This document shows, piece by piece, positions 6,790 through 59,212 of a stretch of 64,000 nt of DNA. Both the position numbers and the translations under genes were made by a program. How positions within the stretch are numbered: position 1 is the stretch's first letter; every line of letters begins with the position of its first letter. This DNA is from Liolophura sinensis (taxonomy: Eukaryota > Mollusca > Polyplacophora > Chitonida > Chitonidae), in contig NC_088295.1 of NCBI RefSeq assembly GCF_032854445.1, positions 6,390,501-6,454,500 on the forward strand, read 5' to 3'. Below the pieces are notes generated by a model. It was not told the origin of the DNA. It ran no database searches and saw only the letters and a list, made by a program, of their open reading frames with translations.

Positions 6790-24984
<18,195 letters not shown>

Positions 24985-34884: not shown

Positions 34885-35119
34885 ATGTTGTACGGCCCTG
34901 ATCCGAAGTCGGAGAAGGTGGGAAATCTCCTTTCTTCGAGTCATTCCGCGGGAGGTGATCAACAACAGACGTTTACTCGACGTGAGACGAATTATGCCAA
35001 CAACTCAGAACGTTTTTACATCAAGGAGAAATCATTTGGAAGACAATATGCACACATATATGCCGAAAGGCTTATGACAGTTCGACCTGAACTGGAGAAA
35101 ACTGCCAAGAAAAAGTGGG
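34885..35119 (+). CDS. POLD2: POLD2 exon 1
   Basis: Encodes residues 1-78, from [20 protein letters not shown] to KTAKKKW, with the conserved [16 protein letters not shown] near-cognate upstream TTG at 34858 is in frame but has no support as a start. Donor GTATGT, phase 1. Confidence 0.93.
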
Positions 35120-38100
35120 GTATGTAAATATGTGCAGGAGTAAACCACAGATCGTCGTTTAGGTCCAACAGGCCTGGCCATACTACTATGTGTGTATAGT
35201 CCCGAAAGTCTTGACGAAGTCTTGACGCTGAGGGTGTTAATTCCGATAGTACTCGTTTCAGAATAGATTTATCATAGTAGCGATCCGAAAACAGACCTGG
35301 TCACGCTCGTGTTGCCTCATACACAAAATGGCGAAATCTTATGGCGAGTGTGAAATGAGAGTTCTGTAAAACTGGTGTCCCCTTGTGTTCGTTTATGGAG
35401 CCAATGAGAGATACATTCTAGGGAGTTCAGCGTGGGAGGGCTCATACATGTTCGAAAGTTGGGGTTAGAACCCTGGCGGAGCATTTTCTAACCCCAATTT
35501 CAGGTATATGCACCCTCCACGCTGAACTCTGTAGAACGTATCTCTCATAGACTCTCAAACATGAGGGGACACCAGTTTTACAGTCTTTTATTTTATATGG
35601 CAAATTTCTGAGGGTACCCTTCCATCATTGTTTGTGTTTATGCAATTGCAGACATAATTGTAATATTTACTATTATTACTATTGGTGCCGAGACTCCAAC
35701 ACCGCTAAGCCAGTATGAGAAAAGGAGTTGTAGTCTTTCGGAACTACTTTCGAGGCTAATGTTTGTACTGTAAGTATATAGTAAGGCAAGGTTGGAAGCA
35801 GTTTCACCAGTTTAGAAATAAAACATTTCTCTGCTAGCTTTGCACTCTTCTGCACTTTGTGGTGTTATGTGAGTCTCACGCTGCCAATAGTCGGTCAGAA
35901 ATATCCGCAATGTGGGCATAATCAACCAAAATGTTGTACTCAGGAATATGTCACTTATACGACGGCGGCCAGCATTCTGGTGGGAGGAAAATGGGCAGAG
36001 CACGCGGGATACCTACAAACATCCGCAGGTTGCTGGAAGACCTTCCCATGTACGGCCGCAGAGAAAGTCAGCATGAGCTAAACTCATAGCAATTGCATTG
36101 GTGGGATGCTCCTGGGTCATTGCACCTTGCCGGCATGCTAACCCCCTTGGCCACAGGGGTCTTCCTTCATGAAATTTTACTTGTACATGTATATCTGATC
36201 TTAAATTACAGGAAAGGATGTTCCAATAAAGAAGTTGTTTGAGTTGGGAATAGGAGAAAAATGTGTTATAATTGGCACTCTTTTTAAACATATGGACCTA
36301 AAGCCCAGTATCCTGAAGGAAATCAGTGAAGAGGTAGGGTTTGTTACAAATAAATCAGTAAAGAGGTAGAACTTGTTATGATGTAATACAACATGACACA
36401 TACATGTATCACATTGTCAAGAAGTGTATGTGTCATTTTGTATTACATCCTCGTGAAAGAGGTACATATACAGGCTGCAATCTCAAGTTGTCTAAAATCT
36501 CTACGAACTAGAAGCACACATTACAAGTAATGTTGCTAATTTTTGTACGTTTGTTAATAGTCTATGTGAAACCCAAGAAACACACATTGATGCAATAGGT
36601 TTGTGGAATTGCCAACTGTTAGACTTAGCAAAAAGCATGTACATGGTCTTTGTGTAGCACTTACACCCTCCCAAACAAAGCATAATTCTTGAATAGCATT
36701 AAACATCAATCAAATAAATGAGTAAGTAAGTTAATGATTAAACATTGATTTGCTGCTTGCTTTTCTCAGCACAACCTCATGCCTCAGCCGATCAGAGCTA
36801 AGTTTATAGCCGATTCTGACAAGCTGATTTTAGAGGATGACCTGCAGAGGATTATTTTGAAGGAGGGCTTTGATATCCAGTCCTCAGTCACAGGTATACA
36901 TACTGGTATTCAGTGAGAAATCTAGCTATATACTGATATACAAAGGTGCGCGCTAGGAACAAGTCACAACAAGTTGTGTTGGCAAAATTTTAGGTAATTA
37001 CTGTACATGTATGTATGTTAAGGTATTCAATGGGAAATCAGTTACAGCTGCATGAATCTACTCAGGTATTTAATGAGAAATCAGTCACAACTACATGTAT
37101 GTGCAAAGGTATTTAGTGAGAAATCAGTCACAGCTACATGAATCTGAACAGGCATTTGGTGAGAAATCGATCACAGGTACATGAATCTGCAAAGCTTTTT
37201 AGCGAGAAATCTTTCATAGCTACATGAATCTACTCAGGCATTTAGTAAGAAATCAGTCACAGCTACATGTATGTGCAAAGGCATGTAGTGAGAAATCAGT
37301 CACAGCTACATGAATCTGCACAGGCATTTGGTGAGAAATCAATCACGGCTACATGAATCTGCACAGCTTTTTAGCGAGAAATTTTTCACAGATTCATGAG
37401 TCTGCCCAGGTATTTAGTGAGAGATCAGTCACAGCTACACGTATGTGCACAGGTATTTAGTGAGAAATCATGAAGTGATCAATTATTATTCTGTCTTGTT
37501 TTAGGTGTGATTGTTGCTGTGTATGGGTATGAGCCAGACCATGACAGAGGAAAGTTTTATGTGAAAGATTACTGTTTTAAGGAGTTACCCGCTCAAGTGC
37601 CACGCCCTATTCTAGAGGAAGATAAGTAAGCAAGCAAGGGCTAGGGGCACATTCACCCAGACATCTGCCATTGATCTGTGTACATTGTTGTACAATTCAT
37701 GTATATGACATTAAACTATTACATTATTAGCAGGTGTGTATTGCAGATACATGGCATTGACTTATATTAACCCTGAACAGGAGCCCATAACAGTGTATGT
37801 TGTATGTGTTTCTGGCGTTCAAATCCTATTCGTAATAAAGTACTAAAAAATATGAGCTGAAACACTGAAAACAATGTCTTCCATGAAAATATATATATTA
37901 TTTTTTTAAAAACTGCGATAAAACATGACAGTCAGGACTATAATATTTATCTTAAAGTTTTTTTATGTTTTTTTGATGTAAAATGAGGTATAATATCTTT
38001 TAGTATTTTCAGACAAAATTGTTTAGAAGAAAATAATATTTATTCTTTCTCTTTGAGTATCTTTTTTTTTAAAGAACATTTGTGTAAAGAAATAGTTCTT

Positions 38101-41100
38101 ATAGAGTTCTGATTCCTAACTTTATAGGTGACATTGTGGCCATGCTATAAAGAAATTTATAAAATACAACTCAAAAGGGAACTGGCCCTGATAGCACAGT
38201 AGAGTGTCTGCTTCAGGAGCGGTAGATCCAGGGTCAATCCTGGGTTGAGTCACACCTAAGACCTTAAAAGAGGAAGTTGTAATTTTCTTGCTTGGTGTTC
38301 GGGGATAGGGGACTGGTTGACCTGTATCAGTATATTGGTTCAGGCGGGGCGGCTTACTTGCCTTCAGTAAAGCGTCTCTGTGAAGCAGCACTAGATAAAA
38401 GAGCGGTGGAAACCTGTCTTGCAACAAGGAGGCACATTACATGCACTCTTCATTCCTTCAATGTCATATGACTGAAAAATTGTTGAGCACGACGTTAAAC
38501 CCCAAGCACCCGCATACCCAACTCAAAAGGGTTCCATGTCCTACATTTTTACATCTGGTCTCGCATGGCATTAGTGGGGGCCTCTGTGGCTCAGTCGGTT
38601 AGCGTGCTAGCACAGCGTAATGACCCAGAAGCCTCTCACCAATGCGCTTGCTGTGAGTTCAAGTCCAGCTCATGCTGGCTTCCTCTCCAGCCATACGTGG
38701 GATTGTCTGCCAGCAACCTGCGGATGGTCGTGGGTTTCCCCCGGGCTCTACCAGGTTTCCACCCACCATAATGCTGGCCGCTGTGGTATAAGTGAAATAT
38801 TCTTGAGTACGGCGTAAAACACCAATCAAATCAATAAATAAATAAATAACACATGGCAGTAATACCTGGTCTGTAGTCACATGGCATTAATATCTGGTCT
38901 GTGGTAACATGGCATTAATATCTGGTCTGTATTATAGTCACATGGCATTGATATCTGGTCTGGTATAGTCACATGTCAATGATATTTGGTCTGGTATAGT
39001 CACATGCCTTTGATATCTGTTCTAGTATAGTCACATGGCATTAATATCTGGTCTGTGGTCATATGGCATTAATATCTGGTCTGTATTATAGTCACATGGC
39101 ATTGATATTTGGTGTGGTATAGTCACATGCCTTTGATATCTGGTCTGGTATAGTCACATCGCATTAATGTCTGGTCTGTAGTCACATGGTCTGTTACAGT
39201 CACATGGCATTGGTACATGGCATTGGTATCTGGTCTGTTACAGTCACATGGCATTGGTATCTGGTCTGTATTGTACATGTAGGTACATAACACTGGTATC
39301 TAATAAATATCATATGTACATAGCACTGGTCTGGTCTGGTCTGGTCTGTATTCTAGGTACATGTACCAGTACATAGTGCTAATATCTCCTATGTATTGTA
39401 GATACATATTAAACACTGGTATCTTGTCTGTACTGTAGGTATGTGGCGCTGATATATGCTGTAGGTACATATTGAACACCATTATCTTGTCTGTATTGTA
39501 GGTACATAGCACTGATGTACGCTCTGTATTATAGATAAATATTAAGCACTGGTATCTTGTCTGTAATGTATGTACATAGCGCCGATATTTGTTCTGTATT
39601 GTAGGTATGTCGCACTATCAAGTCTGATGTAGTTGCATGGCACTGATATCCGGTCTGGTATAGTCACATGGCACTGGTATATGGTCTGGTATAGTCACAT
39701 GGGATTGGTATCTGGTCTATGTCAGTCACATGGCTTTGATATCTGGTGTATTACAGTCACATGGCATTGGTATCTGGTCTATATTGTACATGTCGATATA
39801 TAACACTGGTATCTAATAGATATTGTAGGCACGTAGCACTGATATCTGCTCTGTATTGTATATACATATTAAACACTGGTATCTTGCCTGTATTGTATGT
39901 ACATAGTACTGATATTTGTCTTGTATTGTAGGTACGTAGCGCTGATATCAGGCCTCGGCTTGGGAGGCAGACAGGAGAACCTGTTACCCTTACAGCTGAT
40001 GGTTGACCTCCTGACTGGGCAGCTGGGAGATGAGGGGCAGCAGGAGGCTACAGCTAATGTGTGCCGCATCATCATCGCTGGCAACTCTCTTAGCGAAGCT
40101 ACGCAGGACAAGGGAAGCATTCATCAGGTACTCTACTGTGCAACATAGCTAGGCACCTGGCCTCGGGATCACAAAGCTGTTTTAGACTTATTAATATGTG
40201 ATGTTATTTCTAAGCTGTAATTCAAGATTAAATGCTAATTTTCATTTGTCCGTGAAGGCGGTAAACTGTTGTGAAGATAAGACTATATGTAAGTCTGACT
40301 TAGGTTTACGACAGCTTTCTTATTATGTGTTTTGGGCTAGTGTGGAAGGTCTTTGATATGTGTGGACTTGTGATCACTGACAGCTGCTGACTCAACAGTT
40401 GCTTGAAGTTGAACATGTTTTACTTTTCTACGACCTGTAGCATCCAGTTATACATAGAAGGCCAGTCAGAATTTGCTCTCTTGGCCTTCAGATGATCATG
40501 CATCCTGAAGGACTTTTTAAAATTTAAATGTGATACTTATTGTCAGCCTTGTTGACATGTCAGCAGTGTTAAAGGTTTACCGTTATGGACTTGTAAGACT
40601 TGCTCGTATGAGTTTGTTCAACTTTCATTTTGAGGAGAAAATACATGTATTTAATGCTGTTTATGTTATATGGTGCATTCATTTTCTGTGCAGGCTAAGT
40701 ATCTTGCAAAGAAAAGCACAGCAAGTACTGTCAGTGCAGTGAAGAACTTCGATGAGCTTCTGGCTCAGTTAGCTGTAAGTATGACTGGTTAATGTTCTGA
40801 CTCACTTAGCTGTAAATAGGATTGGTTAATATTCTTACTCAGTTATCTGTAAGTATGACAGGGTAATATTCTGACTCAGTTAGCTTTAAGTTGACTGGTT
40901 AATGTTCTGGCTCAGTTAGCTATAAATATGACTGGTTAATATTCTGGCTCAGTTAGCTTTAAGTTGACTGGTTAATGTTCTGGCTCAGTTAGCTGTACAT
41001 GTATGACTGGTTAATATTCTGACTCAGCTTTGAGTTGACTGGTTAATGTTCTGGCTCAGTTAGCTGTACATGTGTGGCTGGTTAATGTTCTAGCTCAGTT

Positions 41101-44100
41101 AGCTTTAAGTTGACTGGTTAATGTTCTGGCTCAGTTAGCTGTACATGTATGACTGGTTAATATTCTGACTCAGTTAGCTTTAAGTTGACTGGTTAATGTT
41201 CTGACTCAGTTAGCTGTACATGTATGACTGGTTGATATTCTGACTCAGCTTTAAGTTGACTGGTTAATGTTCTGGCTCAGTTAGCTGTGCATGTATGACT
41301 GGTTAATGTTCTGGCTCAGTTAGCTGTACATGTATGACTGGTTAACACTGCGAACTTATTGTCCAGTTTGCTCTAAATATTTATTGTTGACTGCTGAAAT
41401 ATGGGAATCCTTATTTGATCACCTTTAGGCAGGCTATAATAATTATGTAAATTGATTAATTATTCTTGAATAAACCTGCTGGTTTACGTGTAGGTCGATG
41501 TAACTAATGTGTACAATATTCATTTTAGTATTTCATTATAATTGCAAACGTCTTTAATGTAGAAGAATATCTACCCGTCCGATGTTTACCTATGAAAGAT
41601 GTATATGCAAATGTGAATGTGATTGTTTCAGTCCTGTGTCCATGTTGACGTCATGCCAGGGGAGTTTGACCCGGCTAACTACATCTTACCACAGCAGCCC
41701 CTCCACAAGTGTATGTTCCCCCAGGCAGGGGCTTATCAGAGCCTCCACTCTGTCACTAACCCTTATGACTGCAGCATAGCTGGTGTCAGGTGAGAGTCCA
41801 GCGTCCTGAGTCTTTATCTTTACACTTACTGCAGAAGAGTGGTAAAGTTTCTGAAGAGCCTCAAGGATATATAGGAAGTTGTGATGTGTCATTGTAAGGC
41901 CTGTATGACCTTTTTGAAAGGGCATTTTTACATACCTAACTTTAGGTGAAATGCAGTATTATATTTTAGATCTGGAGTTTTAAAAAAACATCTGGGCAGT
42001 GAAGAAATGAGCATGTGATTTGACATAATGTTCTGATTCATTTATACATGAGCGTATTTGGTAGCAGTTTAGCAGGAGTAGTCTCCCTTAGTCTACTGTA
42101 AGGCATCACTAATCAGATGTCAGTGATCATGTAAGTGTCAGTGGCCATGCTACTGCTTGAGAGTTGAGTTGAACTTAGTGATTTAATCTGATTTTATCTA
42201 CATGTATATAGTATCAGATAAAGCTACCTCGTATTCTTCACATCCAGTAACTCCCCATTCTGTCATGTTTGTACATGTACTTCATTATGTATCCTCCATT
42301 TTGCCCAATCCCTCTGACATGGCAGGTTTCTGGGGTCATCTGGACAACCAGTTCATGACATTTACAAGTACAGCAGCATGGAAGATGGGATGGACATTCT
42401 GGAGAAGACGCTCACCTGGGGTCACATCGCCCCGACAGCCCCTGACACTCTCGGTCAGTCATGTGTGCAGGTCACCCAGAAGATACCACTGTCATACATT
42501 CATGTACAATTCAACCCAGCACTCTCGGTTAGGCACGTGTATAGGTCACCCTTTAGAGATATCCATCACACTTTGTCACACAATTGTGTACACATGTACT
42601 CTGTCATTCACCTGTCTTGCTCACCCAGTAGAGATATCCGTCACACTCCATCACACAGTCATGTGCACTTCAGCCCGGCACACTCGGTCAGTCACCTGTG
42701 TAGCTCACCCAGTAGGGACACCCGTTACACTCTGTCACACAGTCATGTACACTTCACCACAGCACACTTGGTCAGTCACCTGTGTAGCTCACCCAGTAGG
42801 GACACCCGTTACACTCTGTCACACAGTCATGTACACTTCACCCCAGCACACTTGGTCAGTCACCTGTGTAGCTCACCCAGTAGGGACACCCGTTACACTC
42901 TGTCACACAGTCATGTACACTTCACCCCAGCACACTTGGTCAGTCACCTGTGTAGCTCACCCAGTAGGGACACCCGTTACACTCTGTCACACAGTCATGT
43001 ACACTTCACCCCAGCACACTTGGTCAGTCACCTGTGTAGCTCACCCAGTAGGGACACCCGTTACACTCTGTCACACAGTCATGTACACTTCACCCCAGCA
43101 CACTTGGTCAGTCACCTGTGTAGCTCACCCAGTAGGGACACCCGTTACACTCTGTCACACAGTCATGTACACTTCACCCCAGCACACTTGGTCAGTCACC
43201 TGTGTAGCTCACCCAGTAGGGACACCCGTTACACTCTGTCACACAGTCATGTACACTTCACCCCAGCACATTTGGTCAGTCACATGTGTAGCTCACCCAG
43301 AAGAGGCCCCCATCACACAATCATGTACACTTCACACCGGCACACTCAGTCAGTTACCTGTGTAGCTCCTCCAGAAGAGGCCCCATCACACAATTATGTA
43401 CACTTCACCCAGCACATTTGGTCAGTCACCTGTCTAGCTCACCCAGAAGAGGCCCCCATCACACAATCATGTACACTTCACCCCAACACACTTGGTCAGT
43501 CACCTGTCTAGCTCACCCAGAAGAGGCCCCCATCACACAATCATGTACACTTCACCCCAACACACTTGGTCAGTCACTTGTCTAGCTCACCCAGAAGAGG
43601 CCCCCATCACACAATCATGTACACTTCACCCAGAACCAGACCCCTTTCACACATATATCAAAGCCTCATTTTGAGTTGCATTTAATAAAAAAAATTTTAT
43701 GCACAGCCACAAGGTCACTCTCAAAGTTTGAGATCAGAACCTTTTATCATTTTTTCCAGATATTGCACGGGTAAGAAGAAAACATTTTAATGGTTTTCTG
43801 CATGCTTGACAAAACAAAAATTTGTAATTGTGCCGCACTCTTGAGTACTTCACCTATTTGATTGGGGACAGAATTATTGTGGGAGGAAACTGGGGAGAAC
43901 CCAGAGGAAAGCCACAACTATAAGTCTGATGTAGGCTTGTGTTGTGAATGGATAGAAATTATACATGAACAGAAGTAGGCGCTTTATGGGCACTTGGATT
44001 GTTAATAAACTGAAATATGTGTTTGTATGGGTGCTTGATTTATGAACCGATAATATTAGATGTCTGATGTGTGCATGGCTTGTGGTGAATATAGAACAGT

Positions 44101-44961
44101 TGTCTCATACTGTGTGCTGAAATTGTTGGTGAATATAGAATAGCTTTCTCATACTGTGTGCTGAAGTTGTTGGTGAATATAGAACAGTTGTCTCACACTG
44201 TGTGCTGAAATTGTTGGTGAATATAGAATAGTTTTCTCATATTGTGTGCTAAAGTTGTTGGTGAATATAGAACAGTTGTCTCATACTGTGTGCTGAAATT
44301 GTTGGTGAATATAGAACAGTTGTCTCATACTGTGTGCTGAAGTTGTTGGTGAATATAGAATAGCTGTCTCATACTGTGTGCTGAAGTTGTTACTGAATAT
44401 AGAATAGCTGTCTCATACTGTGTGCTAAAGTTGTTAGTGAATATAGAACAGTTGTCTCATACTGTGTGCTGAAGTTGTTGGTGAATATAGAATTGTTTTC
44501 TCATACTGTGTGCTGAAGTTGTTGGTGAATATAGAATAGCTTTCTCATACTGTGTGCTGAAGTTGTTGGTGAATATAGAATAGCTTTCTCATAGTGTGTG
44601 TTGAAATTCTTGGTGAATATAGAATAGTTTTCTCATACTGTGTGCTGAAGTTGTTGGTGAATATAGAACAGTTGTCTCACACTGTGTGCTGAAATTGTTG
44701 GTGAATATAGAATAGTTTTCTCATATTGTGTGCTAAAGTTGTTGGTGAATATAGAACAGTTGTCTCACACTGTGTGCTGAAATTGTTGGTGAATATAGAA
44801 TAGTTTTCTCATACTGTGTGCTGAAGTTGTTGGTGAATATCAGACAATTTCCTTTGCAGGTTGTTATCCGTACTATAATGATGACCCATTTATTCTGAAC
44901 CACTGTCCTCATGTCTACTTTGCGGGAAATCAGGACGAGTTCAAAACCAAGCTCTATTCAG
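34885..44961 (+). CDS. POLD2: DNA polymerase delta subunit 2 (POLD2), nine exons seen, 3' end missing
   Basis: This is the structural B-subunit of replicative polymerase delta; it bridges the catalytic POLD1 and the POLD3 arm in the nucleus. Exons are 34885-35119, 36212-36333, 36770-36893, 37505-37625, 39932-40127, 40694-40774, 41632-41789, 42326-42453 and 44860-44961, all GT-AG with matching phases, giving 422 codons. Residues 40-165 form the OB fold ([47 protein letters not shown]). Residues 200 onward form the inactive phosphoesterase domain ([77 protein letters not shown]). Human POLD2 has 469 residues, so about 45 C-terminal residues are absent. Exon 9 ends at donor GTAGGT and no continuation is found by 64000. 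The start is the first ATG after the E2F-like site. Confidence 0.95.
35364..35583. mobile_element. Inverted-repeat element, MITE-like
   Basis: Left end CTGTAAAACTGGTGTCCCCT is matched by right end GGGGACACCAGTTTTACAG. Inner arms also pair (AGAGATACATTCTAGGGAG with AGAACGTATCTCTC; GTTCAGCGTGGGAGGG with CCCTCCACGCTGAAC; TTGGGGTTAGAA with TTCTAACCCCAA). The whole 220 nt can fold on itself. No coding capacity. Confidence 0.8.
35947..36165 (-). mobile_element. SINE (family A), inverted
   Basis: The reverse complement gives the SINE order: GACCCCTGTGGCCAAG head, GTTAGCATGCCGG, AATGACCCAGGAGCATCCCA, CATGCTGACTTTCTC, AACCTGCGGATG, CACCAGAATGCTGGCCGCCG, TATAAGTGACATATTC. The (AAAT) tail is lost. It ends about 45 nt before POLD2 exon 2. 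Confidence 0.8.
36212..36333 (+). CDS. POLD2: POLD2 exon 2
   Basis: Encodes [20 protein letters not shown], then [20 protein letters not shown], matching human [36 protein letters not shown]. Donor GTAGGG, phase 0. Confidence 0.96.
36680..36733 (+). mobile_element. SINE tail remnant
   Basis: TTCTTGAATAGCATTAAACA and TCAATCAAATAAATGAGTAA resemble the family-A 3' end. It is short and diverged. Confidence 0.4.
36770..36893 (+). CDS. POLD2: POLD2 exon 3
   Basis: Encodes [20 protein letters not shown] then [14 protein letters not shown] and on to SSVT, matching human [30 protein letters not shown]. The last ten coding bases, TCAGTCACAG, are the start of the tandem unit in the next intron. Donor GTATAC, phase 1. 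Confidence 0.96.
36884..37470 (+). repeat. 43-nt minisatellite seeded at the exon 3 donor
   Basis: About ten copies of TCAGTCACAGCTACATG(A/T)AT...GGCATTTAGTGAGAAA follow exon 3. The exon-intron junction itself (TCAGTCACAG|GTATACAT...CAGTGAGAAATC) is a diverged first copy. The regular array starts near 37020. Confidence 0.85.
37505..37625 (+). CDS. POLD2: POLD2 exon 4
   Basis: Encodes [20 protein letters not shown], then [20 protein letters not shown], matching human [26 protein letters not shown]. Acceptor TTTTAG, donor GTAAGC, phase 2. Confidence 0.96.
38180..38518 (+). mobile_element. SINE family B, complete, with 13-nt target-site duplication
   Basis: A tRNA-like head (GGCCCTGATAGCACAGTAGA as box A region, GGGTCAATCC as box B) is followed by a body unrelated to family A and a 3' end TTGTTGAGCACGACGTTAAA then CCCC. 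Both sides carry CAACTCAAAAGGG (38167-38179 and 38519-38531), an exact TSD. This shows a discrete retrotransposition into intron 4. Confidence 0.85.
38575..38852 (+). mobile_element. SINE (family A), full length
   Basis: The best copy of the family here. Head GGCCTCTGTGGCTCAGTCGG (box A), TAGCGTGCTAGCACAGCGTA, GACCCAGAAGCCTCTCACCA, GAGTTCAAGTCCAGC (box B), CAGCAACCTGCGGATGGTCG, CACCATAATGCTGGCCGC, TAAGTGAAATATTCTTGAGT, ACGGCGTAAAACACCAATCA and (AAAT)n. It sits inside the first unit of the following tandem array: CATGGCATTA before it, CATGGCAGTA after it. Confidence 0.92.
38853..39931 (+). repeat. 33-nt / about 70-nt minisatellite seeded at the exon 5 acceptor
   Basis: Units such as TCACATGGCATTAATATCTG-GTCTGTATTATAG (about 33 nt) and a composite of about 70 nt (GTACATAGCACTGATATCTG ... 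TATTGTAG) fill the 3' end of intron 4. The true junction TATTGTAG|GTACGTAGCGCTGATATC is one more copy. A first unit (ATCTGGTCTCGCATGGCATT at 38552) lies left of the SINE. Confidence 0.9.
39932..40127 (+). CDS. POLD2: POLD2 exon 5
   Basis: Encodes [20 protein letters not shown], the [12 protein letters not shown] block and [15 protein letters not shown], matching human [21 protein letters not shown] and VILAGNLLSHSTQ. The first 20 or so bases are shared with the upstream array. Donor GTACTC, phase 0. Confidence 0.97.
40128..40693 (+). other. POLD2 intron 5
   Basis: 566 nt without repeats or other features. Acceptor TTTTCTGTGCAG. Confidence 0.7.
40694..40774 (+). CDS. POLD2: POLD2 exon 6
   Basis: An 81-nt exon encoding [20 protein letters not shown] and ELLAQLA, matching human [27 protein letters not shown]. 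The last 18 bases are the start of the downstream tandem unit. Donor GTAAGT, phase 0. Confidence 0.96.
40757..41350 (+). repeat. 34-38-nt minisatellite seeded at the exon 6 donor
   Basis: Units run TTCTGGCTCAGTTAGCT then GTAAGTATGACTGGTTAATG, with variants GTACATGTATGACTGG and TTAAGTTGACTGG that alternate into a pair of about 75 nt. The first copy is the exon 6 end and its donor. A second intact GTAAGT is at 40849. Confidence 0.95.
41632..41789 (+). CDS. POLD2: POLD2 exon 7
   Basis: Encodes [20 protein letters not shown], then [20 protein letters not shown] and [12 protein letters not shown], matching human [26 protein letters not shown]. Acceptor ATTGTTTCAG, donor GTGAGA, phase 2. Confidence 0.97.
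42326..42453 (+). CDS. POLD2: POLD2 exon 8
   Basis: Encodes [20 protein letters not shown] and [19 protein letters not shown], matching human [43 protein letters not shown]. Donor GTCAGT, phase 1. The reading frame continues open into the following array as far as 43511. Confidence 0.97.
42444..43650 (+). repeat. 84-nt minisatellite seeded at the exon 8 donor
   Basis: The junction ACTCTCG|GTCAGTCATGTGTGC and GGTCACCCAGAAG is the first, diverged copy. From about 42770 to 43300 seven near-identical 84-nt units follow, containing TTGGTCAGTCACCTGTGTAG, CTCACCCAGTAGGGACACCC and CAGTCATGTACACTTCACCC. Shorter variants with CCAGAAGAGGCCCCCATCAC run to 43650. Since 84 is divisible by three, two frames stay open for more than 1 kb. 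Confidence 0.95.
43835..43915 (-). mobile_element. SINE fragment (family A), inverted
   Basis: The reverse complement holds GGTTCTCCCCAGTTTCCTCC, CACAATAATTCTG and CCAATCAAATAGGTG with rearranged tail motifs. A degraded relic. Confidence 0.45.
44082..44845 (+). repeat. 44-nt minisatellite adjoining the exon 9 acceptor
   Basis: About 17 copies of GAATATAGAACAGTTGTCTC, ATACTGTGTGCTGAAGTTGT and TGGT. The last copy runs into the exon 9 acceptor region (GGTGAATATCAGACAATTTC then CTTTGCAG|GTTGTTATCC), which itself looks like a diverged copy. Confidence 0.93.
44860..44961 (+). CDS. POLD2: POLD2 exon 9 (last one recognised)
   Basis: Encodes [20 protein letters not shown] and [13 protein letters not shown], matching human [30 protein letters not shown]. 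Donor GTAGGT, phase 1, so at least one more exon must follow. Confidence 0.95.
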
Positions 44962-45117
44962 GTAGGTGACAAGTCTTACTAGTAATCTGTTGGTTTTCTA
45001 CATCTGTCAGGTTTTGATTGGTCAGCTTACTTGTTTACTCTGTCCATTCCACATGTACGTGTATTCACTCACTTTATGCAAACCATCAGCCAGTAGTATG
45101 CCTGCATACAGGAGTAG

Positions 45118-45945
45118 CAAACATATCATATACATGAGCAAAAAGCATGTCATATACATGAGCAAAAAGCATGTCATATACATGAATAAAAGCATACACA
45201 TGAGCATAAAGCATGTCATATACATGGGCATAAAGCATGTCATATACATGGGCATAAAGCATGTCATATACATGGGCATAAAGCATATACATGAGCATAA
45301 AAGCATGTCATACTTGAGCAAAAAGCATGTCATATACATGAACATAAAACATATCATACATGGGCAAAAAGCATGTCATATACCTGAGCAAAATTCATGT
45401 CATACATGAGCATAAAGCATATACGAGAGTATAAAGCATATACATGAGCATAAAGCAAGACATACTTGAGCAAAAAGCATGTCATATACATGTGCAAAAG
45501 CATGTCATATACATGGGCAAAAGCATGTCATATACCTGAGCAAAATTCATGTCATATACATGAGCATAAAGCAAAATTCATGTCATAGACATGAGCATAA
45601 AGCAAGTCATACTTGAGCAAAAAGCATGTCATATACATGGGAAAAAGCATGTCATATACATGGGCAAAAAGCATGTCCTATACATGAGCAAAATTCATGT
45701 CATATACATGAGCATAAAGCATGTCATACATGAGCATAAAGCAAGTCATACTTGAGCAAAAAGCATGTCATATACATGAGTGTAAAGCATGTCATATACA
45801 TGACATAAGCAAAAAAACATGTCATATACATGAAAATAAAGCATGTCATATACATGAACATAAAGCATGTCATATACAAGAGCACAAAATATGACATAGA
45901 TGAGCTAAAAGCATGTCGTATACATGAGCAAAAAGACATGTATTT
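45118..45945. repeat. 24-nt minisatellite
   Basis: Units of CATGAGCATAAAGCATGTCA and TATA with variants (AGCAAAAAGC, GGGCATAAAGC, shortened CATACTTGAGC). About 30 copies, with heavy indels in the second half. Confidence 0.93.
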
Positions 45946-46230
45946 TTACACATTTCTGCACAAAGAACAGGCACGCCGGGCAATGCAACACTGCATTGCG
46001 CTTCTGTGTAAACATGCAGGTTTGTTAGCAGCTGCATGTCCAGATTCAAGCAATTGTTGCGTTGAATGTCATATAGAGCTACATTAAAAATCAATACCAA
46101 AGGCAAAAATTTCCAATTTTATTGTTCAAATTAGTCTGATGTATCTCTGATGTATGTTGACTTGGTTTATTTGAAAAAAAAAATTTCATGTTTTTTCATT
46201 GTTTGGTTGTATTTCTTCTCTTCTTTTTAT

Positions 46231-46276
46231 TGGGGGGTGGGGGTGGGTAGGGGGAGCGGGTGAGGAGGTAATGGTG
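46231..46276 (+). other. G-rich tract
   Basis: Several runs of 3-6 G separated by one to a few bases (GGGGGGTGGGGGTGGGTAGG then GGGAGCGGG). It satisfies the usual G-quadruplex pattern on the + strand. Confidence 0.7.
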
Positions 46277-47140
46277 GAATGGTGGTGGTAGGTCACCAAG
46301 GGTAGAGGCTTAGAGGCTGTACATTTTATTTTCTAATTATTCTCATAATTAGAGGCTCTTAAGTGATTGTCGTTGTAACCTGTGGCTTTTGGCACACAAC
46401 TCTGCATAGTAGTCTCCCCTGGTTTACTTGCCCTTTACCTGGTCTGTCCAGTGAGCAGATTTTGATGAGTTGAGGTTTTCTTACCGGTGTGTTTGACAGA
46501 CCTTCACAAGGACACAAAATGCTTGTTGTTTATAAACCTTGAGGAAGTGATGCATCTGTGGTCTAATGTGAGTCACTCTGTCTGAAGGTTGTTACTATTG
46601 TAAATACCTGGTCCCAGTTGTTTGGAAGCTGTATTTTGTATTTAAGATTTTAGCCAAATTCAGGAGCCAGTTGAATTGTTTAAAATTGGAGTTTTAAGGC
46701 AACAGATTCAAGTCCTATTTAACATACTGTTACGCAATTATTTTTAGGATAAGTACAAAATTGAAGACTTGGGTTAAAGTTAAATCTGGTGTTAGGTCTT
46801 TAAACAGTTTTGAACAACTGGGCACTGGTAAACATACACATTGTGTACTAACAGTATAAGGATTGAATTTTATGGTTTGTATCGTGGCTTTTAAACATGG
46901 TGTGTAAAAGTTTTTTTTTGTTTCTGTTTTTTGCCACAAGCGCAGTTTTGTGTAAATGACATAATGTACCTTTATATGTAGCTGTCCATGTGCCTGCGAT
47001 GGATTCCGCTCACACTTCTACTCTACAAACCAGGACATGTATAACCAAACATTGTGGTTCTAATTGACAATACAACCATAGACATCTACAATCTGAGTAT
47101 TGTTTGATGAAAGCTTCAGATAGCAGACCAATTTTTCTGT
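46277..47140. other. Unassigned DNA
   Basis: No recognised feature. A short ORF around 46980-47065 after a TATATGTAG acceptor-like site was considered and rejected as the POLD2 last exon. Confidence 0.45.
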
Positions 47141-47149
47141 ACACTTAAC

Positions 47150-48165
47150 TTTTCTGTACAAGAAACTCTATTCAAGTGCATCCATGAAGTGCACTTCTTG
47201 CCAGCAACACATAACTATATGAAACTCTGTTCAGGTGCCTCTGGGAAGTGCAGTTGTAGTCAGCTACACAAAAGTATATGAAACTGTATGCACATGTATC
47301 CAGAAGGTGCAGTTATAGTCAGCTACACAAAAGTATATGAAACTGTATGCACATGTATCCAGAAAGTGCAGTTGTAGTCAGCTACACAAAAGTATATGAA
47401 ACTGTATGCACATGTATCCAGAAAGTGCAGTTGTAGTCAGCTACACAAAAGTATATGAAACTGTATGCACATGTATCCAGAAAGTGCAGTTGTAGTCAGC
47501 TACACAAAAGTATATGAAACTGTATGTACATGTATCCAGAAAGTGCAGTTGTAGTCAGCTACACAAAAGTATATGAAACTGTATGCACATGTATCCAGAA
47601 AGTGCAGTTGTAGTCAGCTACACAAAACTATATGAAACTGTATGTACATGTATCCAGAAAGTGCAGTTGTAGTCAGCTACACAAAAGTATATGAAACTGT
47701 ATGTACATGTATCCAGAAAGTCCAGTTGTAGGCAGCTACACAAAAGTATATGAAACTGTATGCACATGTATCCAGAAAGTCCAGTTGTAGTCAGCTACAC
47801 AAAAGTATATGAAACTGTATGCACATGTATCCAGAAAGTGCAGTTGTAGTCAGCTACACAAAAGTATATGAAACTGTATGCACATGTATCCAGAAAGTGC
47901 AGTTGTAGTCAGCTACACAAAAGTATATGAAACTGTATGCACATGTATCCAGAAAGTGCAGTTGTAGTCAGCTACACAAAAGTATATGAAACTGTATGCA
48001 CATGTATCCAGAAAGTGCAGTTGTAGTCAGCTACACAAAAGTATATGAAACTGTATGCACATGTATCCAGAAAGTGCAGTTGTAGTCAGCTACACAAAAG
48101 TATATGAAACTGTATGCACATGTATCCAGAAAGTGCAGTTGTAGTCAGCTACACATAACTATGCG
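47150..48165. repeat. 59-nt minisatellite, about 16 near-identical copies
   Basis: The unit is AGTATATGAAACTGTATGCA, CATGTATCCAGAAAGTGCAG and TTGTAGTCAGCTACACAAA. Central copies are almost invariant (GCACATG/GTACATG, GTGCAG/GTCCAG). The first two units are diverged and contain AACTCTATTCA and AACTCTGTTCAGGTGCC. Confidence 0.96.
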
Positions 48166-48295
48166 AAACTCTATTTAACTGTGTCTGAAAGTTGTTGAGT
48201 GAAGGCTGTACTTAGCCTATATACAATAGTTGTTTTAAAGTGAAGCTTTTGTTGAAAGCTTCTCTGAATAGACAGAAAAGGGGGCGTGCATGACT

Positions 48296-48490
48296 GAGGG
48301 AGGTTGGCATGCAGGCACAGCGCAATGATCCAGGGACCTGTCACCAATGCGGTTGCTGTGATTTGAAGTCCAGCTCATGCTGGTTTCCTTCCCAGCTGTA
48401 AGTGGAAAGGTCTGCCAGCAACCTGCAGATGGTTGTGGGTTTCCTTCACCACAATGCTGGTTGCCGTCATATAAGGGAATATTTTAATAG
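48296..48490 (+). mobile_element. SINE (family A), nearly full length
   Basis: GGCATGCAGGCACAGCGCAA, GATCCAGGGACCTGTCACCA, GAAGTCCAGCTCATGCTGG, CAGCAACCTGCAGATGGTTG, CACCACAATGCTGGTTGCCG, then a truncated 3' end without the AAAT tail. Confidence 0.8.
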
Positions 48491-50125
48491 GGGAGATATC
48501 AAGTAGGTTAATCTTATCAAAACAAAGAAAAACAGTTTGTTTCCTGATATGTAATATATATGCATTATTGGCTGGGTGGAGGTGAATGCGTGATATGTGT
48601 TTGTATATCTGAGTAACCCAGTAAACAGGCAGATGTTGAGGTCTTTGATTTCTACTTCTAAGTGAAGTCCATTTGCAGAGCGTAAGGCTAAGTGCTTTGC
48701 ACCAACTTTCCTTTTTGCCTTTATGTCCTGTCTAGTAATGCAATGCCCCTTTGCTGAGAGCTTTGTCTCACAGTTCAGTATTGACATGCATTTATGACTT
48801 TCAGCTTCCTCAGTCTATTGAAGAATCTGATAACTAATATGACTAGGCTGGATTGCCAAGGCTATCCCCTGGGAATTGGAGAGACAGCATGAAGGAGATT
48901 GAGTGAGCTCCTCTGTTAGACCAGCCACAAGTTAGGATGGCCGTATATTTGTCACTTTTTATGCTTGTCACTCAAACATACCCCACTCCATGGCTGTCGG
49001 TATCCAGAACTGTCAGATCACTACAGCGGTTTGGAATCAAGTGTCTGAATTGTGCTGGAGACATGATGAGCTCTGGGCGAATATGACTTCGTCAGTTCTC
49101 ATCTGTCAAATCAGATTTTCTCCATTGTCTATTTAACAGATTCCAGCCTGTTGTATTATAAATACGTTTGTGAGAGTGACAATCTGCTGTGGTAAGGAAA
49201 TAGCTTTGTTCCTTTGATGTCAGACAGTAAAAAGCTGCACGGCCTTGCTTAGTTCATGCTTAGCCAGTGGCAGGTTTGATGGTGTGTTTATTGTGTTGGC
49301 ATTGTCAAGTAAAGCTGTATTTATCTGACTATTAATGTGAGTGGGTGCGAAGAGGCTCACCTGAGTGACTGACTTCTGTTTTATCCATGTGTTTTCAGGT
49401 GCTAATTACAGTTTGATTGGTTCATTAGTATTGTAATATTGATAGAACTGTGTATTGTCTGAGAGCTGTCAGGTGAAGTGGAGCTGTATAATCCAGCCTC
49501 CAGGCTCACAGCGGTTTGACGCTGTCTCTACGGCTTCTCTACTCCTTTTCTTAGAAGCATATTTATAACTAAGTTCACTTTGTTCTCAATATTGGCAAGT
49601 TTATTTATAGTTCTTGAGATCTGCGGCTACAAGATGGGCTAGTGATGTTGTTATCATGGACTGGATCAACACCGTACAGGGCAGACTGGTGGGTGGGGGA
49701 TAGTGAAAACAGCCTACATAAGGACTGGAGCCATTGATTGCCAGTGACGCCACATGGCCAGCAAGGCAATCGACCAATTCTAAGTCATTTGCGTGATCAC
49801 ATTAACTTTGTGCTGGCCATTTCTTGGTGGGCTGTTGAGGCCGTAATGATCGTGTGAAAGTCAATCCCATTTGGCTTTTTATTTCCTAATCTTATGGAGG
49901 AGAGCGTATTGATCACAACTTTGATGTTTCTCTTATTGATTCTGCTTGCCTTTTTGTAGAGAATGGCAAGAAAAGATTTCCTGACGTAATGAGACTTGAG
50001 GCTGTCAGGCATTCAAGAGAGGATGTCTCAACTCTGAAACACTAATCTTATCCCCTCATGTCTCCTGACCTTCACACCCACACTTGACCTTTACACTAAC
50101 CAATACCAAGACATTTATATATGTT
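48491..50125. other. Unassigned DNA
   Basis: Relatively balanced base composition but no recognised exon, RNA or element. Confidence 0.45.
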
Positions 50126-50129
50126 CTTA

Positions 50130-51420
50130 ACCACTCAGTGCTAAACTACCCTACCCTTTGATGGTCATCCATATGCTTGCACAGTAAGTTAAATCTGCTT
50201 TGTAACCCTTGGATAGCCAACCATAATGGGTGTTTTATTTGGTCTACCCTGAAATAACCACCCACACATGGTGGGTTAACTGTCCTACCCGTAGATAACC
50301 ACCCACACACAGAGTTGTTTAACTCTCCTACCCTTAGATAACTACCCACACACAGTGGTTAAACTGCCCTACCCTTAGATAACCACCCACACACAGTGGT
50401 TAAACTGTCCTACCCATAGATAACCACCCACACACAGAGTGGTTCAACTGCCCTACCTGTAGATAACCACCCACACACAGTTGTTAACCTGTCCTACTCT
50501 TAGGTAACCACCCACATATAGTGGTTAAACTGCCCTACCCTTAAATAACCACCCACACGCAGTGGTTTAACTCCTACCCGTAGATAACTGCCCACACACA
50601 GTTGTTAAACTGTCCTACCCTTAGATAACCACCCACCCATAAAAGTTGTTTAACCCATACACAGTGAGTGAACTCTCCTACCCCTGGATAACCACCCACA
50701 CATACACAGTGGTTTAACTCTCCTACCCGTAAATAACCACCCACACATACACAGTGGTTTAACTGTCCTACTCATAGATAACCGCCCACACACAGTGATT
50801 TAACTGTTCTACCCATAGATAACCACCCACCCACACACAGTGGTTTAACTCTCCTACCTGTAGATAACCACCCACCCACACACAGTGGTTTAACTCTCCT
50901 ACCCGTAGATAACCACCCACCCACACACAGAGGTTTAACTGTCCTACCTGTAGATAACTGCCCACACACAGTGGTTTAACTGTTCTACCCACAGATAACC
51001 ACCCACACACACACAGTGGTTTAACTCTCCTACCTGTAGATAACCACCCACCCACACACAGAGGTTTAACTGTCCTACCTGTAGATAACTGCCCACACAC
51101 AGTGGTTTAACTGTTCTACCCACAGATAACCACCCACACACACACAGTGGTTTAACTCTCCTACCTGTAGATAACCACCCACCCACACACAGAGGTTTAA
51201 CTGTCCTACCTGTAGATAACTGCCCACACACAGTGGTTTAACTGTTCTACCCACAGATAACCACCCACACACACACAGAGGTTTAACTGTCCTACCTGTA
51301 GATAACCACCCACATACAATGTTACACTGACTTTTCCTGTGATGACCAATTTCATCCACATGCAGGGTTCTAAGATCTTACTCTTAAGATAACCACCCAC
51401 ATCTACAAGTGTTTTTTGTG
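50130..51420. repeat. About 40-nt minisatellite with a 131-nt higher-order unit
   Basis: The basic unit is GATAACCACCCACACACAGT plus GGTTTAACTGTCCTACCCGTA. Between about 50940 and 51290 three basic units form a 131-nt higher-order repeat: the landmark TTCTACCCACAG recurs at 50983, 51114 and 51245. Minus-strand ORFs (CGWLSTGRTVKPLCVG-like) are repeat by-products. Confidence 0.93.
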
Positions 51421-52184
51421 TTTCACAAGGACTTCACTGAAAGGTTTTATATCATTTAGATTATAGCTTGTCTTGTTGTATAGTTTAATCTTTAAACTAT
51501 TAAAAAAAATTTTTGCTGCACCAGGACCATGCCATCAATTATCTCATTTGAGAATATTTCAGATCACTGATGAGGGACTAATAAAAAATACAAAATATGC
51601 CTCATAACTGAAATGTACCTTTCATAAAGTTCCTTAAAAGTTTTGGAGCAAAATTGGACTTCCAAAATCGCATAAGCCTGTCAGACGGTAGATCTCGAGC
51701 TAATTGTAGACACGTTAGTCCGTGAACTGATGCGTGAAGTTGAGTTATTGTTAACTGTGTCTTGTCTCTGCAACTGACAGTCTATGATGAAAGAGAAAGG
51801 CAATTGCCACCCAAACTCTACAGCTGCTCTGTTTTTTTTATTACCCCAGCATTTTGAGTGAAGCCTGTAGCAGGTATGCAATATGGAAGATAAGAATACA
51901 TGGCCATTAGTTGGATGTCACATGGGACTTGTTCAGTCCATGACAGTTCTCTTTTATTTGAAATGATTGATCTTGTATTTGCTTTTCTCAGTACATCGGA
52001 AATTTGTGTGGAACGTGTTAACGGTTACATTAATCATAATCCATTTTTCCCTTCCAGACTTAGTCCATTAATGCCTGTGAATTGTTAAGTAAGAGCATTG
52101 TCGATAGAGAAGTGTGCAGAAGGGCAGAGGAGTAGAATGAAATGTTCACACCAATAGAAAGCTTCAAGCCTGGTCAGAAAAAAG

Positions 52185-52400
52185 AGGATTGAGGTGGAGA
52201 GGAAATGAGTGGGTGGGGTGGAGAGGAAACATGGGTGGTTGGAGAGCAAAAATGTGGGTGGGATGGAGATGAAATGGGTGACTGCTCAGTGGGGTGGAGA
52301 GGAAACGTATGAGTAGGGTGGAATGGACTGAGGGAAAATGTGGGTGATGTGGAGAGGAAACATCAGGGCAAGAGGTGGGTCCTTGACAGTTTGGAGAGGC
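52185..52400. repeat. Purine-rich imperfect tandem repeat
   Basis: GTGGGTGGGGTGGAGAGGAA-type units of about 30 nt recur with variable spacing. The + strand is strongly purine-biased. Confidence 0.7.
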
Positions 52401-52479
52401 GGGCAAGGTGTAAATTCCAGCAGTATTGTGTAAGCCACTTATTCATTATAATGCATATTATTTCTCTGATCTACAAACA

Positions 52480-53345
52480 CAGTACCTTGTGTTACTGATA
52501 ACACTTTGCCATCATAGTTCTTTGTTTTACTGATGACACTTTGCCATCCCTGTACCTTGTACTGATGACACTTCGCCATCATAGTTCTTTGTTTTAGTCA
52601 AGAGATGTTGAAATCACATTTCTTTGTTTTACTGATGACACTTTGCCATCATAGTTCTTTGTTTTACTGATGAGACTTTGCCATCAAAGTTTTTTGTTTT
52701 ACTGATGAGACTCTGCCATCACAGTTCTTTGTTTTAGTGAAGAGACGTTGAAATCAGTTCTTTGTTTTACTGATGACACTTTGCCATCACTCTACCTTGT
52801 ACTGATGACATTTTGTCTTCACTGTACCTTGTTGTACGGATGACACTTTGCCATCACTGTGTCATCATGTTACCTTGTTATACTGATGACACTTTGCCAT
52901 CACTGTACCTTGTACTGATGACACTTTGCCATCACTACCTTGTACTGATGATACCTTGCCATCACAGTATCATGTTGTACTGAAGAGACTTATCACAGCA
53001 CCTTGTACTGATGATACTCTATCACAGTACCTTGTTGTACTGATGACACTTATGCTATCACAGTACCTTGTTGTGTTGATGACACTCTATCACACTACCT
53101 TGTTGTACTGATGACACATGCTATCACAGTACCTTGCTGTACTGATGACACTTTATCACAGTACTTTGTTGTACTGAATACACTAACTCTACCATTGTAC
53201 CTTGTTGTACTGATGACACTCTATGCTATCACAGTACATTTTTGTACTGATGACACTTGTGCTATCACAGTACCTTGTTGTACTGATGACACTTATGCTG
53301 TCACATTACCTTGTTGTACTGTACCGATGATACCTTTTGCCTTTT
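52480..53345. repeat. About 35-nt minisatellite
   Basis: Units of TACTGATGACACTTTGCCAT plus CACAGTACCTTGTTG, with an earlier subfamily carrying CATAGTTCTTTGTTTTAC. Much length variation. Confidence 0.9.
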
Positions 53346-54540
53346 ACTGATGTCACCTGCCCTAACTCTACGTCTGTATTTGATCGTGACTGGATAAATG
53401 ACCTTGTTCAGACCTGATTTATCACTACTGGCCCGTTTAGCTATGTTGTGGGGCGGGGGCAGGCTGGACTCAGGTGGGAGAACACCTCTCATGTCATCTC
53501 CTTTATGGAACTCTTCAGTCTAAAGCTGCCGTCGGTGGAATAACATCATCTCTAGCTATATAGATAACCAGACATGCACACTGTCAAATGGAGCACTCTT
53601 GTGTCATTTATTTTGCAGAAAACTCATATTGATTGTATGCTAATCCATTGTATGAGTATAAATGGCTTGAAATATGGTAGATGTATGTGATAGGACCTGT
53701 AATATAAGCTAGTATCTGCAGCAGGTAACACATGCCGTAAGTAAGACTTGATGTAGCAGGTGATGTATGGCAGTATGAAGTATTAGCTGAGATAGAGTGG
53801 AACGGGGCCACAGCTGGCAGGCCAATAATACCTATAGATATTAACCCAGTGTAAGTGTGGGAGATTGTTTAGGCGGGGGGAGGGGGAGGGGCGAGGATTG
53901 GGCTTCCAGACAGGTGAATTTTACTGATTCATGAATTAAATGAAACTGCTGTGGATTAATGCTTGCTGTGAAACTCTGGGGAATATTGATTTGGCCTTGT
54001 AATATTCAAGTTTAAACTAGTTGTTAAAAGGTTTGTTTGTTCAGTGACACACTTTCTGTTAACCGCACAGTCCTTGTTGCCAGTTTACAGCGGTGATTCT
54101 GAATTTACGATAAGAAAAAATATATATCATAAATGTGTCATTTGGAAAAAATGTTGAAGTATTCTGTAAGTGTAAAAATTATTCTTAAAAGAATAAGACA
54201 TTCACTTGTTGCACAGGTTGGCATCAGTAATCTTACGTAAATATTTTTGAAGTCAGCTCTATTACATTTGTCTTCAGTGGACAAAAAATTTTTTGAAATT
54301 ATATATGTGAAAGCAGCAATGCCTTGGTTCAAGCCTGTATTTCTGGCCTATGCGACCTCTCATTCAGTTAATGGAATGGTGTCTTTATGTATTGTGATAG
54401 AACAAATTAATTTGAAAGGATACATTCTTCCAAGCCATCAATACAATGTATGTGCACTGTGTAGCATGTTAAATCTGTAGTAAATCGGCCTTAGGACAAT
54501 TCGTGAGAAAAGGCAAGTTCTGTTTTTTCTAATTCAGTTC
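53346..54540. other. Unassigned DNA with a G-rich tract
   Basis: No gene recognised. A GGCGGGGGGAGGGGGAGGGG run at 53871-53890 and GGGGCGGGGG near 53450 are G-quadruplex candidates. Confidence 0.5.
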
Positions 54541-54544
54541 AATG

Positions 54545-55185
54545 CTTTTCAGCTTGCTTCCAATACACGTGTAACTCTTTTCACTCTGCAATTTCCAGCA
54601 TGTTTACAGTACGTGTAGCTCATTTCACTCAGCAATTTACAGCATGCTTACAGTATACGTGCCGCTCATTTCACTCAACAATTTCCAGCATGCTTACAGT
54701 ACATGTGTAGCTCATTTCACTCAGCAATTTCCAACATGCTTACAGTACACGTGCCGCTCATTTCACTCAACAATTTCCAGCATGCTTACAGTACATGTGT
54801 AGCTCATTTCACTCAGCAGTTTTCAGCATGCTAACAGTACACGTGCCGCTCATTTCACTCAACAATTTCCAGCATGCTTACAGTACATGTGTAGCTCATT
54901 TCACTCAGCAGTTTCCAGCATGCTTACTGTACAGGTGTAGCTCATTTCACTGAGCAATTTCCAGCATGCTTCCAGTACACGTGTCGCTCATTTCACTCAG
55001 CAATTTCCAGCATGCTTACAGTACATGTGTAGCTCATTTCACTCAGCAATTTTCAGCATGTTTACAACACTTGTGTAACTCTTTTCACTCAGCAATTTCC
55101 AGCATGTTTGCAGTACATGTGTAACTTTTCACTCAGCAAATTCCAGCATGCTTACAGTACATGTGTAACTTTTCACTCTTTTCAG
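54545..55185. repeat. 46-nt minisatellite
   Basis: Units of GTACATGTGTAGCTCATTTC, ACTCAGCAATTTCCAGCATG and CTTACA. In the first half two variants alternate (ACATGTGTAGCTC and ACACGTGCCGCTC), making a 92-nt pair. Confidence 0.94.
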
Positions 55186-55924
55186 CTTTTAAGTTTTCTG
55201 TCATTTGACATGCAAACATTAAATGGGTTAAATGTGCTTTTTTGCACTTTGATCCTAATTTGGGACAAAAGTGAACATAAAACCATGATCAGGACGTCAA
55301 GTTATGTCAGGTAACATGTTTAGAAACTTCAGTTTTTTTTTGTTTTTACCTGAGATCACTTATGCTGTATCAGCTAAAACCTAATTTGCTCACACATTGC
55401 ACTCTTTTTGTTCCCAGAAATGCCCCATGAAACACTTTATAGGGGCACTAAATGGGGTTTTGAAGAAAATGGTCTCATGATTGACTGAAATTATTACTCG
55501 CCAAAGCTCATCTGGAGGCCTACTATGTACATAAGTGTCATGCGTTTCTGCCATGCCGGTGTAGCTGCAGAAGATTTCAGTTTTGAAGAGTGCACGAAAG
55601 TGTGATTTTTTTGGCACGTCCAGTTATGTAAAATTTGTCTCCTTGCCTTAGGATGATATTAGGCCTTATAATTAAGACTGCGTCTCTAGTTTCTATTTGA
55701 AAGGACAAAAACCACACTTCCAGTTCTGCAAAAACTGCATATCCGGAATCAGGGTGCAAAACTGCATCAGATAGGACGGTTTTACTGTAATATTTTCAAC
55801 AGTCTAGAAATTATTGAGTAAAAAAAAGTTTTTGGTCACATGACATTTTTTGGTCACATGACATTTTTTGGATTTTTAGCTTGCTTGTACAAAGTACACG
55901 TGTAGCGTATGTCATACCCTGGGC

Positions 55925-56900
55925 GTCAGCATCCAATAATAAAGAAGGCAGTATTAAACGAAATGCGAGGGGTGGTGAGTACTGCAGATATTGAGCTCAG
56001 GGTTTGCAGACATGTAGGGCACAGTAACGAGAGGGGGATATGCCATCGTTGATTGGACGTGTGGATATTAAGTAACATCAGTTACATAATTCCTGTCTGA
56101 GTGTATCATGTATAAAAAGCAATGTTAAACAAAATGTTGGAGATGGTTTCTCAAATAGTTCTGCGTGTATTGAGCTTAGGGTTTGCACACATGTAGAGCA
56201 TGATAGCATGAGGGTATGCTCCATCGTTGATTAAATGTGTGCATATTAATTATCGTAAATGACTGAATTCCTGTATTGTGTATTAGAATCACTGTTAAAG
56301 CAAATGTTGGTTAGCGCGCTAGCGCAGCGTAATGATCCAGGAGCCTCTCACCAATGCGGTTACTGTGAGTTCAAGTCCAGTTCATGCTGGCTTCCTCTCC
56401 GGCTGTAAGTGGGAAGGTCTGTCAGCAACCTGTGGATGGTCGTGGGTTTCCCGCGGGCTGTGCCCGGTTTCCACCCACCATAATGCTGGCCGCCGTTTTA
56501 TAAGTGAAATATTCTTGAGTACGGCGTTAAACACCAATCAAATAAATAAATAAATAAATAAACCAAATGTTAGGGATGGTATCTCAAAAAGTTCTGCATT
56601 TATTAAACCCAGGGTTTGTTCATGTAGATAACGAGTGGGATATTTCCATTGTTGATTCGTTGTGTACATATTAAATACTGTAAATTACTGAATTCCTGTC
56701 TTGGTGTATTGTGTATTAGAATCAAAAATGTTAGGGGGTGGTATCTCAGAAAGTACAAAATGTATTGACCTGAAGTTTTGCATACACATATAGCACAATG
56801 ATGCAAGGGAAATGTTCCATCATTGATGCTCTGTGTGTATGTTTAAATACTGTAAATCACCAAATTTATGATTTCAGTTCTTTATGCATTGAGATGAAGT
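55925..56900. repeat. About 190-nt tandem repeat, four diverged copies, split by a SINE
   Basis: Each copy contains an AAATGTTGG/AAATGTTAGGG start, TCTCAAAAAGTTCTGC, TATTGAGCTTAGGGTTTGCA, a CCATCGTTGATT block and TGAATTCCTGTCTTGGTGTA. Copies begin near 55950, 56135, 56565 and 56730. The family-A SINE at 56309 separates copies two and three. Confidence 0.85.
56309..56563 (+). mobile_element. SINE (family A) with 8-nt target-site duplication
   Basis: GGTTAGCGCGCTAGCGCAGC, GATCCAGGAGCCTCTCACCA, GAGTTCAAGTCCAGTTCATG, CAGCAACCTGTGGATGGTCG, CACCATAATGCTGGCCGCCG, TAAGTGAAATATTCTTGAGT, ACGGCGTTAAACACCAATCA, (AAAT)n. CAAATGTT occurs on both sides (56301-56308, 56564-56571). The 5' tRNA-like end is cut by about 20 nt. 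Confidence 0.92.
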
Positions 56901-57950: not shown

Positions 57951-58170
57951 TCTAGTCCAGTGGTAGAAGCGTGGACTTGTAACCCAGAGATGGCTGGTTC
58001 AAATCCCCGGCTGGTTCAAATCCCCCAGCTGGTACCACTGTCACACTTGGCACTGCGAGCAGGGTTGCTGGGGTGGCTTATAAAACAGCTGTGATGCTTT
58101 CCTGAGCTTTGTGTGTGTTGAACTATCCTTTCCTGGGTAGTCACAAGGGTGTGCCTAGGACAACACGGTG
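57945..58170 (+). mobile_element. tRNA-Thr-like retroelement head (third SINE type) or tRNA pseudogene
   Basis: TCTAGTCCAGTGGTAGA (box A), an anticodon-loop-like CTTGTAA (TGT, Thr) and GGTTCAAATCC (box B at 57996-58006) are in tRNA order and spacing. The box-B segment is duplicated (GGCTGGTTCAAATCCCC twice). The acceptor stem does not pair well, so this is not a functional tRNA. A non-tRNA body follows to about 58170 without a clear end. Confidence 0.55.
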
Positions 58171-59140: not shown

Positions 59141-59143
59141 TCA

Positions 59144-59212
59144 GACTAATTACTGTACGTACTGCAGACTAATTACTGGATGTACTGCAGACTAATTACT
59201 GTACGTACTGCA
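59144..59212. repeat. 23-nt tandem repeat, three copies
   Basis: GACTAATTACTGTACGTACT plus GCA three times; the middle copy has GGATGTACT. Confidence 0.9.

Follow-up and report, generated by a model that had tools for sequence, protein, structure and literature searches.

Mirage-like minisatellites copied across exon-intron borders in POLD2 and other genes of the chiton Liolophura sinensis, and their frequency relative to random placement

Several introns of the POLD2 gene of the chiton Liolophura sinensis carry tandem arrays whose repeat unit includes the neighbouring splice junction, and the question raised by this locus is whether some process amplifies exon-intron borders, as an earlier note on this DNA had proposed, or whether minisatellites born at random positions overlap the borders often enough on their own. 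The window analysed is a stretch of 64,000 nucleotides (NC_088295.1, positions 6,390,501 to 6,454,500, forward strand) on contig C1 of a genome of 609 Mb in 632 contigs; the assembly was first published as Liolophura japonica and the species was later corrected to L. sinensis (PMC12441733). Coordinates below are those of the window.

The exon borders of POLD2 were obtained by spliced alignment with the human POLD2 protein; the aligned span was 34969-44963, and the start at 34885 and the end of exon 9 were called by eye. The alignment gives eight GT-AG introns and a frame unbroken from exon 1 to exon 9, which suggests that the authentic splice sites are the ones used in this gene:

POLD2 exons 1-9, plus strand, spliced alignment: 34885-35119, 36212-36333, 36770-36893, 37505-37625, 39932-40127, 40694-40774, 41632-41789, 42326-42453, 44860-44961

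The last four of the 12 predicted introns were a spurious alignment tail past exon 9 and were discarded before the counts. Downstream of exon 9, as far as the end of the window (44962-64000), the terminal coding exon or exons could not be located, and an exon 7 probe detected no second copy or allele in the single assembly. More large arrays are present in the intron after exon 9 (TRF), none of which reaches the exon 9 donor.

Each junction was represented by a probe extending at most 24 bases into the exon and 16 into the intron, which was searched for in its own intron with at least five exonic bases required in the match. The null consisted of 400 random equal-length stretches from the introns of other genes in a first run (p-value floor 1/401), and of 1000 random stretches plus the own intron reversed in a second run (floor 1/1001). 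Searched in the true introns, four of the 16 POLD2 junctions scored 18 or more, namely the donors of exons 2, 6 and 8 and the acceptor of exon 5; with each intron reversed, none of the 16 did. The exon 5 acceptor (score 24), the exon 6 donor (29) and the exon 8 donor (18) were each above all 400 random stretches, as was the exon 2 donor (19), which has a single tandem copy 32 bp downstream. For the exon 3 donor the score was 13 when gaps were limited (p = 0.02); with free gaps it rose to 44, versus a shuffle maximum of 31. Copies were found, in all, at five of the 16 junctions tested; these, and the array before exon 9, are listed here:

36322..36377, plus strand: exon 2 donor with a single copy in tandem (alignment, score 19)
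36884..37470, plus strand: exon 3 donor with an array of 43-bp units that fills intron 3 (TRF 37021-37470; gapped alignment 44 versus 31)
38850..39949, plus strand: arrays with 31-63 bp units, terminating in the exon 5 acceptor (TRF 38850-39279, 39397-39780, 39821-39949; score 24)
40758..41345, plus strand: array with units of about 37 bp (paired as 75-bp units), beginning in the end of exon 6 (TRF; score 29)
42444..43631, plus strand: exon 8 donor and 84-bp array (TRF 42603-43631; score 18)
44083..44840, plus strand: intron minisatellite of ordinary type (44-bp units) upstream of exon 9, which did not arise from the exon 9 acceptor (TRF; junction p = 0.95)

These five junctions are not quite the five named in the earlier note, which had described units containing the exon end plus the splice dinucleotide at the exon 3, 6 and 8 donors, at the exon 5 acceptor and, probably, at the exon 9 acceptor, and had not claimed the exon 2 donor. 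Its coordinates are correct (TRF, copies inspected), its first four junctions stand, units of this composition recur in other genes, and the units at different POLD2 junctions appear to be mutually unrelated, as it had also stated. The exon 9 acceptor does not stand: it scored 8 (p = 0.95 versus the 400 random stretches), and where it aligns best with the adjacent array, the alignment includes intron bases only and ends before the junction. The array unit includes 18 coding bases at the exon 5 acceptor and 17 at the exon 6 donor; the motif CTCG/GTCAGT (the slash marks the border) repeats every 84 bp in the array after the exon 8 donor; and the units of the exon 3 donor array retain the exon end with CT in place of GT, the GT being kept in none of the four copies scored.

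The same search was applied to conserved housekeeping genes of the same genome: chaperonin (CCT) and adaptin/COPI genes (first batch), and MCM genes (second batch). Models were obtained for 21 of the 25 fetched loci, the other four giving no usable template match (C11 27.80 Mb, C3 6.08 Mb, C6 81.17 Mb, C6 6.73 Mb); four Pfam match sites were omitted as long single frames (C5 5.57 Mb, C6 7.94 Mb, C6 10.74 Mb, C1 79.68 Mb). Before the counts, 23 of the 251 predicted introns (15/178 in the first batch, 8/73 in the MCM genes) were removed because their flanking exons were short or their splice scores weak, leaving 228 introns and 456 junctions in 21 genes. Scores of 18 or more were found at 10 of these 456 junctions, distributed in seven of the 21 genes and some of them with a single copy only, versus 0/456 with reversed introns; by batch, the counts were 9/326 and 1/130 (MCM). 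All 400 random stretches of the first run were outscored by 13 of 326 junctions, versus 0.8 expected. The pattern of junction copies is real and extends beyond POLD2. Examples are a COPB acceptor with 13 matches (spacing mostly 79 bp), an AP3D acceptor matched 26 times (the listed spacings being 47-49 bp), and six copies of a CCT5 exon end (spacing 88-111 bp). The CCT5 border array (minus strand) has a 109-bp unit with 97 exonic bases, so that a long part of this exon end recurs in several copies, the GT retained. Counting POLD2, donors (10) outnumbered acceptors (4) at this score, a difference that was not significant (p = 0.18). The rate in POLD2 (4/16) exceeds that of the sample (10/456; Fisher p = 0.0007, POLD2 having been chosen for the pattern), and this gene stands out because arrays occupy 42% of the sequence of its introns 1-8 versus 12% of the intron sequence in the 21 genes. 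Array load also differs between the sampled genes: the 65 introns of the MCM genes hold 8 arrays, the 163 of the first batch 41.

Repeats of this kind have been described in amphioxus. According to the available parts of two reports (PMC3087553, PMC3902484), amphioxus mirages, a term from Canestro et al. 2002 as cited there, are minisatellite-like duplications in tandem that straddle an exon-intron border, whether at the donor or the acceptor end, and many of them carry AG/GT signals; they occur in Adh3, in the globins BflGb6 and BflGb9 and in TnC, with similar repeats in PGBD5; unit length is 10-72 bp for Adh3 and 150-160 bp for the globins; and they show length instability together with, as far as reported, regular splicing. 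Available passages of the first report (PMC3087553) also propose border minisatellites as a general cephalochordate phenomenon and as raw material for new introns. The chiton arrays share with them units that span the border, the presence at both donors and acceptors, and similar unit sizes; they differ in that the host is a mollusc rather than a cephalochordate, and in that, for the chiton, the frequency has been set against the number expected from placement. Going by the one genome sequence from which the chiton case is known, its border arrays qualify as mirages by anatomy. In a model reportedly due to Rogers, introns are gained through tandem genomic duplications carrying splice signals; the chiton duplications likewise carry splice signals, but their copies lie inside existing introns, whereas the model has the duplication create a new one. 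Ordinary minisatellites in the introns of this genome resemble the border arrays in unit size and divergence, and 40 of the 49 sampled arrays span no junction (TRF count); what sets the border arrays apart is a founding unit that contains exonic bases. No report of such repeats in a mollusc or chiton was recognised from titles and abstracts in the open-licence literature, and the available parts of two papers, one on gastropod hemocyanin introns (PMC7931591) and one on a chiton genome (PMC12005716), do not mention them. This is a known kind of repeat, in a phylum for which the open-licence literature yielded no earlier report. Eight mollusc-type hemocyanin domains were also observed in tandem on contig C8 of the present assembly, which speaks against amphioxus, the animal in which mirages are known, as the origin of this DNA; no match to the GFP family was obtained, a weak negative because no positive control gave a signal.

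The explanation that we consider probable is that the border arrays are mirages produced by random minisatellite birth and tolerated when the extra copies land in the intron. Tandem duplications would be frequent and roughly random in position, and those altering the mRNA would be eliminated; in the sample, no array lay mostly inside exons (0 in 32,688 exon bp versus 11.3 expected at the intron density, P = 1.3e-5). A founding unit that by chance straddled a border would leave one intact exon edge and place the surplus copies within the intron, and could thus persist, after which the array would presumably expand, diverge and homogenise as other intron minisatellites do.

The number of spanning arrays to be expected from such births was computed. 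A unit with exon bases must have been founded across the border, because arrays do not consume their flanks; under uniform founding, the probability that a unit of length u spans a border is approximately 2(u-5)/(Lc+u-1), where Lc is the collapsed intron length. Since introns are short after collapsing and unit lengths range from tens of bases up to about 110 bp, an appreciable fraction of the arrays should overlap a border even without targeting. The TRF-only count (u of at least 15, score of at least 50, at least five exonic bases), a criterion fixed before the MCM genes were taken in but after the results of the first batch had been seen, gave nine junction-spanning arrays out of 49 versus 6.0 expected (p = 0.12; 228 introns, 21 genes, POLD2 excluded), that is, 8/41 versus 5.3 in the first batch and 1/8 versus 0.74 in the second. 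Adding alignment evidence raised the count to 10/49, versus 6.0 (p = 0.055) or, with the larger repeat unit, versus 7.6 (p = 0.20), the expected counts varying with the unit length chosen. An alternative estimate predicts 6.6 spanned junctions among the 456, versus 10 observed. A Kolmogorov-Smirnov (KS) test of array positions (p = 0.01) was set aside, because spanning arrays cluster at both intron ends by construction and the uniform law is therefore the wrong null. The earlier note had suggested comparing the overlap of array units and splice junctions with shuffled positions over the whole genome; the present counts are a small version of that comparison, and their outcome depends on the criterion, from p = 0.12 in the TRF-only count, through 0.055 or 0.20 with alignment evidence, to the lower values of the first batch given below.

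The earlier note itself favoured a process that amplifies exon-intron borders. A mutational preference for such borders, arising for instance from breaks, R-loops or slippage at AG/GT, we regard as unlikely. Random birth has the following points against it, most of which also speak for a border preference: observed numbers exceed expected ones both in the first batch and after pooling of the batches; under an early criterion, the first batch alone gave nine spanning arrays versus 4.9-5.6 (p between 0.034 and 0.082 across the ten threshold choices); POLD2 alone, evaluated post hoc, is an outlier with four of five arrays spanning versus 1.0 expected (p = 0.0014); and the sample plus POLD2 gave 15 spanning pieces out of 56, the POLD2 intron 4 array being entered as two spanning pieces (p = 0.001 or 0.02, depending on the unit length). 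Against this, POLD2 was picked for showing the pattern, the count with the pre-fixed criterion did not establish an excess in the independent sample, and the second batch was close to expectation. A process that amplifies borders is thus not established. Random repeats in short introns could yield most of the pattern, making a border-targeted process unneeded; a mild preference for borders, with spanning arrays some 1.5 to 2 times as frequent as expected, is possible. A broader reading, in which borders would be mild (about 1.5 to 2-fold) hot spots of array birth, junction copying would recurrently lengthen introns, separately in molluscs and in amphioxus, and the spliceosome would ignore at least a dozen intact decoys per intron, seems to us equally doubtful.

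The fate of the splice dinucleotides bears on whether selection keeps the border copies as spare splice sites that aid or regulate splicing. In 148 copies from 15 junctions (five of them from POLD2), GT or AG was retained in 106, and many copies are near the authentic site, as spare sites would be; many decoy splice sites therefore appear to be tolerated, as far as the genome sequence tells. The dinucleotides are, nevertheless, not better conserved than adjacent positions (identity 0.81 versus 0.83 in the same 148 copies, p = 0.92), and they are lost in the scored copies of some arrays, such as that of the POLD2 exon 3 donor, which makes selection for spare sites very improbable. The same comparison showed no preferential loss of the dinucleotides. 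The splice-site copies are neither protected nor purged, as far as visible here. Random birth anticipates this result: if the border copies are neutral, as they seem to be, their dinucleotides should be no less conserved than their neighbours.

Chance resemblance or an assembly artefact can hardly account for the arrays: chance fits the claim for the POLD2 exon 9 acceptor, but elsewhere scores reached 40 versus random maxima of about 11-16 among the junctions listed, the copies are not identical to each other, and PacBio HiFi reads underlie the assembly, according to the available part of its description (PMC11068029).

With random birth as the preferred explanation, mirages occupy about 2% of the sampled mollusc junctions (10/456), not far above the prediction of random placement, which suggests that they are a by-product of genomes rich in minisatellites and with short introns. 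Introns with at least a dozen near-identical donor or acceptor sites in tandem would also be natural tests of splice-site choice.

Two further kinds of repeat were observed in the 64-kb window, in which ARAGORN predicted no tRNA. Resembling segments at about 38574-38830, 48290-48490 and 56300-56500 look, by eye, like tRNA-derived SINEs. One 29-bp unit forms two arrays in opposite orientation about 2 kb apart (17743-17969 and 20037-20155; TRF), indicating that this minisatellite unit moved or was inverted.
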